Shown piece by piece: positions 9,508 through 41,739 of a stretch of 64,000 bases of DNA. Source of the DNA: Clostridiales bacterium (GTDB taxonomy: Bacteria; Bacillota; Clostridia; Christensenellales; UBA1242); the NCBI GenBank assembly GCA_918262735.1, contig CAKJYJ010000003.1:210883-274882 (forward strand), read 5' to 3'. Under the pieces are notes generated by a model that had not been told where the DNA came from, did no database searches, and saw only the letters and a program-made list of their open reading frames with translations. The position numbers and the translations under genes were made by a program. Position 1 is the stretch's first letter. Every line of letters begins with the position of its first letter.

Positions 9508-9750
9508 CTCAAAAAAAGCCCATGTGCTAAAACACATAGGGCAAATTGTTTGCGGTACCACCTAATATTGTTGACATATAATCAACCTCATTATATTTTT
9601 ACGGTTTTATCCGGCTTTTCTTTTTACCGAAAAGCAACTCCAATGCTGAAATTCGCTAAATTGCTGAACATAAATGGCTCTCAGCCCATGACCATTCTCT
9701 CTGTATGAAACAAAGTAACTACTAAAACACATCTTCACAGTTTTTATGTT
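9508..9750 (-). promoter_or_regulatory. T-box leader (tRNA-Phe responsive) upstream of pheST
   Basis: Minus strand has T-box core AGGTGGTACCGC (9552-9563), AGAGAGAATGG stem I element, and terminator GCCCTATGTG...CACATGGGCTTTTTTT just before pheS. Confidence 0.92.
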
Positions 9751-16040: not shown

Positions 16041-16116
16041 CGGGGTGTAGCGCAGTTGGTAGCGCACGTGGTTTGGGACCATGGGGCCGGGAGTTCGAGT
16101 CTCTTCACCCCGACCA
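16041..16116 (+). tRNA. tRNA-Pro (TGG)
   Basis: Cloverleaf, CGGGGTG/CACCCCG acceptor, TTTGGGA loop, encoded CCA. Confidence 0.95.
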
Positions 16117-16126
16117 TTAATATTGA

Positions 16127-16203
16127 GGGTCTTTAGCTCAGTTGGTTAGAGCTACCGGCTCATAACCGGTTGGTCCGGGGTTCGAGTCCCTGAAGACCCA
16201 CCA
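16127..16203 (+). tRNA. tRNA with CAT anticodon (elongator Met or TilS-modified Ile2)
   Basis: GGGTCTT/AAGACCC acceptor, CTCATAA loop, encoded CCA; not initiator (G1-C72 pair). Confidence 0.9.
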
Positions 16204-16256
16204 AAATTTATTTTTGGTTTCACAAATTGCTCAATATGGTTTGAATTATATGCCTT

Positions 16257-16333
16257 GGCTCGGTAGTTCAGCTGGTTAGAACGCTAGCCTGTCACGCTAG
16301 AGGTCGTGGGTTCGATCCCCATCCGAGTCGCCA
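16257..16333 (+). tRNA. tRNA-Asp (GTC)
   Basis: Cloverleaf with CTGTCAC loop, encoded CCA. Confidence 0.95.
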
Positions 16334-16369
16334 ATAATTCTTAGCATATGGAGCATTATTTGTGTATTT

Positions 16370-16445
16370 GCCTCGGTAGCTCAGTCGGTAGAGCAAGGGA
16401 CTGAAAATCCCTGTGTCGGTGGTTCGATTCCGCCCCGCGGCACCA
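16370..16445 (+). tRNA. tRNA-Phe (GAA), acceptor stem with T4:C69 mismatch
   Basis: AGGGA-CTGAAAA-TCCCT anticodon arm, GGTGGTTCGATTCCGCC T-arm, encoded CCA. Confidence 0.92.
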
Positions 16446-16606
16446 TTGCCTTTTTGGTTAAAGGCGCATTATTTCAAGGTTCAAGTGTAGCTTGGCAATC
16501 AAAAACAACACAAACCTCCCCTTTTATCATATAATATATTCTTTTCTATAAATAGTGGTTTAGATATTTTCGTGTTGTTTCTATCTAAAATAATGACCAC
16601 TTAAGT

Positions 16607-16682
16607 GCTGGTGTAGCTCAATTGGCAGAGCAACTGATTTGTAATCAGTAGGTTGTTGGTTCGATTCCGATCACCAGCTCCA
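16607..16682 (+). tRNA. tRNA-Thr (TGT)
   Basis: GCTGGTG/CACCAGC acceptor, TTTGTAA loop, encoded CCA. Confidence 0.95.
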
Positions 16683-16685
16683 TTT

Positions 16686-16771
16686 GGGTAGGTTGCAGAG
16701 CGGCCAAATGCTACGGACTGTAAATCCGTCGACTCACGTCTTCGGTGGTTCGAATCCACCCCTGCCCACCA
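16686..16771 (+). tRNA. tRNA-Tyr (GTA)
   Basis: Class II tRNA with long variable arm, CTGTAAA loop, encoded CCA. Confidence 0.95.
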
Positions 16772-39778: not shown

Positions 39779-39805
39779 AAAAAGTGTAAGCAATAAAGCT
39801 TACAC
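39779..39805 (-). terminator. Terminator of OLE-oapA-like unit
   Basis: Minus GTGTAAGC-TTTATT-GCTTACAC-TTTTTAATT. Confidence 0.85.
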
Positions 39806-39829
39806 CCCGCGTGAATTATTCTTGATATT

Positions 39830-40417
39830 TTAATTTTTTTTCTGCCCGGAACCATAACCAAATATGCTGAGAAATTTTCCAACCCTAAGTATAATTCCAT
39901 TACAGTTATTTATTGCACACCTCTTTCCAAGTGCCTTACCAAAAATTGTTATTCCAGCAATTAACGCCGTAATTAATGACGCAATAAGAATTGACAAACT
40001 CGCATTGTCTGAATTCAATAATATTTTCGCAACAATACTAGCGCCAGCCGCACCACTCAATATTCCACAAACATCACCAATAACATCCGCACACAATGAT
40101 GCAACCTTATCTGCATTCCTTATAAGCGCCAAACTTTCTTTAGCTCCCCTAACCTTTTTGGATGCCATCGCCACAAACGGCTCTTTATTACAAGCGGTAA
40201 TTGCCACACCAATCATATCGGTTATTATTGCTATTGCAACAAAAACAACAATTATAACAACAGCAACAATTATTCCAGCACTTCCAAGAATAAATTCTGA
40301 AACTATACTAAAACACAATGACAAAGCAACGGCCATAACAAACACTTTTAATGGCCAAAAACTATTAACACTCTGTTTACGAACCTTTTTATTCTTCTCT
40401 TTCGGGTTATCTTCCAT
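39830..40417 (-). CDS. CorB/CNNM-like membrane protein, putative OLE-associated protein OapA
   Basis: 195 aa, several hydrophobic segments, KVRGAKESLALIRNADKVASLCADVIGDVCGILSGAAGA; directly downstream of structured RNA; argR-recN synteny. Confidence 0.7.
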   Translation of the reverse strand: MEDNPKEKNKKVRKQSVNSFWPLKVFVMAVALSLCFSIVSEFILGSAGIIVAVVIIVVFVAIAIITDMIGVAITACNKEPFVAMASKKVRGAKESLALIRNADKVASLCADVIGDVCGILSGAAGASIVAKILLNSDNASLSILIASLITALIAGITIFGKALGKRCAINNCNGIILRVGKFLSIFGYGSGQKKN

Positions 40418-40514
40418 TATTATTCCTTTATATATTATATATTAACGTATTACATTGTATGAAATAAAAAAACATATTATACTTTAACCCATAACAACAT
40501 AATAACGTGCTAAC

Positions 40515-41091
40515 AAAAAAAAATGAAGGTAATATTCTAAGTAAACCTTGCGACATAGGTTCGGTTGGATTTCCCACCTGGTGGACTTTTCGTTACCAAA
40601 AAGCAGTTTCCTTTTACCCACTGGCACTCACCGAATCGCCACTAAGCGCGCACTATAATCCCTAAAATATCTGATGATATACATCAACAGCCTAGAGGTT
40701 TTCCCAAACACCATTGTTTGCCCTTAGCTTGTTTTGCATATTACGTTTCAATGACATAGCCTTATTAATGCACAGCGCTATGTATTATTTTGGCATTAAC
40801 CGCCATATCCCCGTAACACACTCAAAGCAGGCTACACTGCACACAATTTTTGTCATATGCAGGTTCACGCCCAACCAGCAGGAAACTCGTAAGTCTTCCG
40901 CCAAATTGGGTCTCCACGACAAATGGGTTCAAAATTGTATGCCGTTACAATCCTCCCAAATGCCTTAACTCCCAGCATCTGCCCCAATTTGGGCAATCAA
41001 AGCAAACACCAAGAACTTCACAGATATGCCCTTCGACGCCATATAGTATCGCCTTCCAGACAAACTCAAATGACTAGGATACTGCACCTTC
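40515..41091 (-). ncRNA. Large structured non-coding RNA, putative OLE RNA
   Basis: ~575 nt with no credible CDS, GC-richer than other intergenic DNA, own promoter, 3' stems incl. TTCGGT/ACCGAA, ends at weak hairpin plus U9, directly upstream of OapA-like gene. Confidence 0.72.
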
Positions 41092-41097
41092 GTATAT

Positions 41098-41126
41098 ATT
41101 ATACAATATTTTTCAAGTAAAATCAA
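41098..41126 (-). promoter_or_regulatory. Sigma-A promoter of the structured RNA
   Basis: Minus TTGATT-17-TATAAT; predicted start near 41091. Confidence 0.8.
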
Positions 41127-41143: not shown

Positions 41144-41171
41144 TTGACATATGCCCAGAATAATATATAAT
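41144..41171 (+). promoter_or_regulatory. Divergent sigma-A promoter of HAD gene
   Basis: TTGACA-16-TATAAT. Confidence 0.75.
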
Positions 41172-41193: not shown

Positions 41194-41739
41194 ATGCTCA
41201 TCTTTATTGATCTAGACGGCACCCTGTTTGACACATATTCACTTAATCCTCAAAATAATGGTGAATGGATTTATGCATATGCCAGCGCACCACTTATGAA
41301 AGGGGCGAATGAAACAATATCTGAGTTAAATAACAATGGTGACTATTGTATAGCAATCACACAAAGAGGAGTAAATCTTGGCAAAATTGTGTATGATATA
41401 TCAAAAAATGCCATACTTTCAAGAATAAAACCAAAATCAAACATAAAGGGATTAATTTGGAAAGTTGACAACAAAACCAAATTTATTGTTGAAAATCACG
41501 AAAAAATCAACCACACCATTGGCAAACACTACCCCTTTAATCAAATTGTTTTAATTGACGACGACATTGACACAGTGGCACAAGCAGCACAAGCTGGGTT
41601 TTTAGGAATACTATTTGGTGCCAAAAGCACCGATACCACCAGCAAATTACCACCAAATCTAAAAATTGCTGAAGATTGGAATGAAGTAAAAACAATAATC
41701 AACACATATAAATGTGTTAACAGAGAAAATCAAATATAA
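41194..41739 (+). CDS. HAD-superfamily hydrolase
   Basis: MLIFIDLDGTLFDT, IVLIDDDIDTVAQAAQAGF; SD AAGGAG. Confidence 0.85.
   Translation: MLIFIDLDGTLFDTYSLNPQNNGEWIYAYASAPLMKGANETISELNNNGDYCIAITQRGVNLGKIVYDISKNAILSRIKPKSNIKGLIWKVDNKTKFIVENHEKINHTIGKHYPFNQIVLIDDDIDTVAQAAQAGFLGILFGAKSTDTTSKLPPNLKIAEDWNEVKTIINTYKCVNRENQI

Follow-up and report, generated by a model that had tools for sequence, protein, structure and literature searches.

An OLE RNA-oapA locus in a Clostridiales genome and the retention of OapA without OLE RNA in its family

The window, a 64,000-nt stretch of DNA from a Clostridiales bacterium, contains a genuine copy of the OLE RNA adjoining oapA, a known kind of locus. In the family of the host genome OapA is often kept without OLE. 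OapA is best read as a stand-alone transporter and OLE as a dispensable tuner docked on it, which was repeatedly lost, re-acquired as a cassette or shortened (probability roughly 0.7). OapA appears able to act alone, with OLE as an adjuster, because the two are distributed asymmetrically, the ion-site residues are kept, the presumed docking motif decays and MpfA is excluded. OLE ranks with the largest structured RNAs of bacteria and is not known to have a biochemical function.

In the proposed mechanism the window locus would make a 'variant 1' OLE and its partner OapA, a CNNM-fold transporter, most likely of Mg2+ or another divalent cation, that could work without the RNA. The dock of OLE would be AMASKKVRGAK, a basic helix-turn-helix that lies between TM2 and TM3 of OapA; docking would bring OLE to the membrane, where it would tune transport under stress. 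OLE would have been lost several times, with OapA and its ion-site residues kept and the docking motif decaying afterwards. In one large genus (g35) an OLE-oapA cassette would have been re-acquired elsewhere in the genome, and in another (g5) OLE would have been reduced to domain 2. On balance we also favour the more detailed claim that OapA is self-sufficient and OLE a removable regulatory cofactor, that the motif decays without OLE, that the OLE-oapA cassette travels and that a mini-OLE of ~245 nt, domain 2 only, is functional without the proposed transmembrane helix. Genomes with OapA only separate the protein's own role from that of the RNA and nominate a swappable 11-residue docking motif; together with the g5 lineage, which retains ~40% of the OLE RNA, they are natural tests of the role of OLE. 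The features are listed in Table 1.

Table 1. Positions of the features described in the text (window coordinates unless a locus is named)
Feature	Position	Strand	Evidence
OLE RNA gene (RF01071, model 1-616)	40510..41106	-	cmscan 375.3 bits, E 1.1e-106; covariation
Likely OLE transcript	~41091 to 40515, ~577 nt	-	sequence inference
Sigma-70-type OLE promoter, TTGATT-17-TATAAT	41098..41126	-	consensus scan, 10/12 matches
P1 5' strand, GAAGGU	41086..41091	-	complementary to 40525-40530; covariation at the equivalent pairs of relatives
P1 3' strand, ACCUUC	40525..40530	-	
U9 tract 3' of P1, possible 3' end	40515..40523	-	not kept in every relative
oapA, 195-aa CNNM-like four-helix membrane protein	39830..40417	-	PF01595 E 3.9e-6; OapA profile; AlphaFold; Foldseek
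OapA DxxxD motif, D111/D115	40073..40087	-	100% conserved with and without OLE
OapA residues 83-93, AMASKKVRGAK, candidate OLE-docking motif	40139..40171	-	best separates OLE-linked from OLE-less OapAs
Divergent HAD-like hydrolase gene between OLE and proS	41194..41739	+	weak HAD matches
Terminator-like hairpin 3' of oapA	39781..39808	-	11-pair stem and T tail
Mini-OLE, ~245 nt (genus g5)	L047:1540-1790 and L048:4112-4362		RF01071 106.9 and 95.9 bits, above gathering score

The OLE RNA of the window

An earlier note on this DNA had proposed an OLE RNA in a minus-strand region of ~575 nt, and the RF01071 search bore this out: the window copy matched the whole model, from first to last position, far above the gathering score of 50 bits. 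No OLE match was obtained in 14 control genomes. The likely transcript agrees in length with the proposed region, and its strand holds no credible ORF. The promoter named in the note was found; ten promoter-like sites were present versus 6.4 expected in shuffled sequences, so that this promoter is evidence by its position only.

The ends of the RNA are joined by a 6-bp closing helix (P1), one base ahead of the U tract. In an alignment of 30 OLE RNAs of the family, at least one double compensatory change was found in 82 of the 137 predicted pairs, as expected of the conserved, covarying structure sought in relatives. Two pairings noticed earlier, that of GCGATTCGGT with ACCGAA..TCGC near the 3' end and the hairpin CUUUUUGGUAACGAAAAG, proved to be part of the OLE consensus. 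A third, AGTATC/GATACT near the 5' end, was abandoned: GATAC is not conserved in relatives, in which CAG-UAU-CCUAG pairs with CUAGG-CUG. The loops UGCC in P5.1 and GGCA in P6.1, which are kissing partners in cryo-EM work on OLE (PMC12265935), are preserved in the alignment.

Shortened OLE RNAs of reduced-genome uncultured gut Clostridia have been described as 'variant 1' (PMC11332333). By its sequence the window OLE fits this class, with shortened stems and the stem of the OapB site apparently missing (near model 477-501, where a stem is deleted, a single nucleotide stands in for 19 model positions). Its 375 bits lie within the published range of 310-390, the published cut-offs having been set with a different model. 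As in 'variant 1', the RNA has the full model length, P1 and P2, and the P5.1 and P6.1 loop letters, and the locus has an adjacent oapA, the xse/argR/recN neighbourhood and a reduced genome lacking OapB and OapC; unlike in 'variant 1', a divergent HAD gene isolates OLE from proS.

OapA and its predicted fold

The gene directly next to OLE, on the same strand, is oapA. The only domain match of its product was to PF01595 (CNNM). The score of 27.1 bits narrowly misses the cut-off of 28.4, and published OapA likewise scores just under this cut-off (PMC11332333). The product also matched the OapA profile and has the DxxxD signature that sets OapA apart from CNNM proteins (PMC11332333). D111 and D115 of this signature most likely correspond, on the numbering implied by the motif, to D100 and D104, which are altered in the PM1 mutant of H. 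halodurans OapA (PMC9723947).

Since a sequence-profile search found no solved structure for OapA, folds were compared. The AlphaFold model (pLDDT 79.5) shows four long helices. In Foldseek, the six PDB structures that matched it best were all CNNM/CorB/CorC proteins, including MtCorB/CorC (7m1t, 7m1u, 7cfg), at modest E-values (2e-3 and above). The identification of the 195-aa polytopic ORF as OapA was thus upheld, and the terminator and argR-recN-spoIVB reported downstream of it were also present. The window protein resembles published OapA in its four predicted helices, DxxxD, CNNM-like fold and basic motif beside TM3; unlike published OapA, the same protein occurs without OLE, with a degenerate basic motif, in ~119 genomes of the family. 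The CNNM fold is shared with the Mg2+ transporters MpfA, CorB and CorC (PF01595 plus CBS and CorC_HlyC domains), from which OapA differs by DxxxD, a fourth helix and the lack of CBS or CorC domains.

Locus layout and host genome

The gene order in the window is nusB-xseA-xseB-proS-(HAD, divergent)-OLE-oapA-argR-recN-spoIVB. The HAD-like gene has its own promoter, a perfect TTGACA-16-TATAAT at 41144-41171, and is missing at the corresponding place in the sister loci L092 and L093. Because OLE lies 51-60 nt behind proS in sister species, with no HAD gene between them, its autonomy is not a family trait. The autonomous transcription unit proposed in the earlier note would therefore hold for the window, with its putative promoter and divergent upstream gene, and not for the family; the arrangement looks specific to the window species.

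The window genome has a size of 1.26 Mb; the closest relatives among public genomes are assemblies of Clostridia from the guts of herbivores (yak, roe deer). A KOW search for OapB in this genome returned only two matches (133-aa and 185-aa frames), which were read by size as L24 and NusG. For OapC (L7Ae/YbxF), PF01248 had no match at E 0.01 in the genome and its four congeners. Neither of these two partners of the H. halodurans-type OLE RNP was thus found in the window genome. The locus is of the published kind, since OLE is shortened, the genome is a small one of gut Clostridia, and OapB and OapC were not found. Neither the occurrence in a non-extremophile gut spore-former nor the lack of ispA/dxs is novel, 'variant 1' having been published already (PMC11332333). 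A T-box leader (9534-9747, minus strand, 103 bits) and six clustered tRNA genes (16041-16768, plus strand) also lie in the window.

OapA without OLE in the family

OLE and OapA were searched in the whole genomes of 310 members of the family. OLE was found in 101 genomes, all of which had OapA. OapA was found in 221, of which 120 gave no OLE match; removal of G241 (locus L070), whose OLE is cut by a contig end, left ~119. These belong to 11 genera, with 81 in one large genus (g35). A published survey suggested that OLE and OapA may never occur apart (PMC11332333); species with variant OLE were left out of its correlation analysis (PMC11332333). In a further family, f8, OapA without OLE was found in two genomes only.

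OLE-less loci keep the order xseB/proS-oapA-argR. In 36 of the 40 fetched, xseB/proS lay directly upstream of oapA (gap median 55 nt, maximum 287), and OLE is absent from between them since the gap is too short. The same was seen within a single genus, g27: G030 has xseB-195 nt-OLE-oapA-argR-recN, G058 (Christensenella sp. UBA5489) has xseB-48 nt-oapA-argR-recN and G287 has xseB-193 nt-oapA-argR. On the OapA tree the OLE label requires 5-6 changes, at least three of them forced by well-supported branches, and the AU test rejected a tree that unites the OLE-less OapAs of the family in one clade (p 7e-6). OLE has probably been lost several times in the family, with OapA and its ion-site residues retained.

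If the partnership were obligate, the OLE-less genomes would hold an undetected, diverged or unassembled OLE. G241 is exactly such a case, several other partial OLEs lie at contig ends, G014 has an unexplained 543-nt gap and a 3-kb contig, and a highly diverged OLE elsewhere, or one in an assembly gap, is conceivable in some genomes. Against this, no cryptic OLE turned up beside oapA in 16 OLE-less loci, even when Rfam was scanned permissively (E up to 5), the upstream gaps are too short, and the same whole-genome search detected even a 217-nt match at 96 bits. Many OLE-less genomes are more than 95% complete, and the loss of the motif described below accompanies the absence of OLE. A hidden OLE is thus regarded as distinctly unlikely.

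That the OLE-less proteins are MpfA/CNNM-type proteins or relics, and not OapA proper, is very improbable. They do match PF01595 at 17-40 bits, and so do other OapAs; however, all 43 compared have the OapA-specific DxxxD, CBS and CorC domains are absent, the OapA profile matches nearly all of them with E of at most 1e-49, they lie at the OapA locus, and three are nested inside an OLE-linked clade.

CorC_HlyC (MpfA-type) proteins were found in 2/101 genomes with OLE versus 72/209 others of the family, the latter comprising 28/119 with OapA only and 44/89 with neither OLE nor OapA. Within g35 the counts were 1/29 with OLE versus 21/81 without (p 0.007; Fisher p-values, in these MpfA comparisons as elsewhere, ignore shared ancestry). 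OLE and MpfA are thus largely exclusive in the family, which extends their published exclusion to a clade left out of the survey.

At L158:4001-4510, which is outside the OLE-less loci studied, a 610-aa gene follows OapA, and the 1.7 kb ahead of OapA contain no OLE, long ORF or Rfam match.

A candidate OLE-docking motif on OapA

The OapAs linked to OLE (44) were compared with OLE-less ones (43). The most discriminating positions cluster at A83, M84, A85, S86, K88 and K93; A83 was found in 84% with OLE versus 5% without, and M84 in 93% versus 16%. The median net charge of residues 82-94 falls from +4 with OLE to +1 without, and no such drop was seen in the neighbouring stretch. The ratio of identity in the motif to that in the rest of the protein was 1.32 with OLE and 0.53 without. 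None of D67, D111, G114, D115, G122, K161 and K165 varies among the 87 proteins. Residues 83-93 lie between TM2 and TM3 in the AlphaFold model, folded as a short helix-turn-helix.

Binding of OLE by a cluster of basic residues on OapA has been a published speculation (PMC12265935). AMASKKVRGAK is likely the OLE-docking site, and its pattern of conservation would give that speculation evolutionary support. Three of the 43 OLE-less OapAs still have a motif score of 5-6 of 7. On well-supported branches only three independent OLE changes could be paired with the state of the motif, and the direction agreed whenever the states differed; with three changes, an independent-pairs test cannot reach significance.

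A mini-OLE of domain 2 in genus g5

In the two genomes of genus g5 (G008 and G048) the sole OLE match spans model 279-595. The RNA consists of the 5' consensus GGUGCAGUAUCCUAGU, a short hairpin and the whole of domain 2, closed by P1. P1 has at least 11 pairs and is changed on both sides between the two species. Folding of the two sequences together gave 65 pairs; double changes occur in 15 of them, and no pair is broken. Domain 1 (P3-P9) is absent in full, and neither genome has a second OLE match. Both OapAs keep MASRRxKGAK. In G008 oapA and the mini-OLE point towards each other; in G048 oapA lies on another contig.

The published 'variant 2' (RF39, no P7/P8) is likewise a natural shortening of OLE in reduced genomes; unlike it, the g5 RNA lacks all of P3-P9. 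The published survey, with a lower limit of 235 bits (PMC11332333), would have discarded the g5 RNAs because they score 96-107 bits. Order- and class-wide scans found no further mid-contig case. Partial matches in G303, G346, G493 and G525 were rejected as mini-OLEs, since they lie at contig ends.

A decaying pseudogene or an assembly error would account for an RNA seen nowhere else among ~1000 genomes and known from two metagenome assemblies of one genus, one of them 76% complete. We consider this unlikely, since two species that have clearly diverged (77% column identity) share the architecture, mid-contig in each, the 5' and 3' ends are intact, the doubly changed pairs come with no broken one, and both OapAs retain the docking motif.

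In a published proposal, helix P3 of OLE crosses the membrane, so that domain 1 would lie on one side and domain 2 on the other (PMC12265935). As P3-P9 are absent, the mini-OLE is without this proposed helix, and a natural OLE of this kind bears on the membrane-spanning model. If it is functional, the job of domain 2 would need neither domain 1 nor the P3 helix, and threading of domain 2 by P3 would be unneeded.

The mini-OLE also bears on the view that the RNA itself is the active partner, perhaps as a ribozyme or a stress sensor (the published bTOR idea), and OapA mainly its membrane anchor. The size and conservation of the RNA, the published argument and the membrane location (PMC12265935, PMC11332333) speak for it. 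The asymmetry in the family is the reverse of what it would predict, OapA being often without OLE and OLE never without OapA, and in g5 most of the RNA can be missing. We hold this view to be doubtful and prefer OapA as the transporter, with OLE as its tuner.

The OLE-oapA cassette in genus g35

In g35 the 29 genomes with OLE carry at least two OapA matches each, and those without OLE carry one. In the genomes examined a resident OapA with no OLE beside it occupies the xseB/proS locus. The copy linked to OLE has another place: behind groEL, behind tilS, or next to a serine recombinase gene and a tRNA gene. On the tree the OLE-linked OapAs of g35 cluster with OapAs from other genera, and a clade uniting them with the resident copies was rejected (AU p 8e-6). 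The cassette was apparently acquired horizontally in g35, which is the simplest reading of these trees.

No carrier element was identified, and viral contigs were without OapA. Carriage by a plasmid was rejected: the sole plasmid match, Pusillibacter pMM59_01, has a chromosome-like dxs-argR-recN locus with its own OLE. At L055:4410-6001 (G126; same locus as L131) a large serine recombinase gene and an overlapping tRNA gene lie directly upstream of the cassette, a hint that the pair may mark its integration site. A weak OapA-like match (31% identity, E 6e-4) was found at MT835614.1:833-1222, in an unannotated record from human faeces labelled as phage. In G149 OLE and oapA are separated by a TROVE/Ro60 gene (PF05731, E 4.5e-32) at L090:2994-4508, a locus that is also L166.
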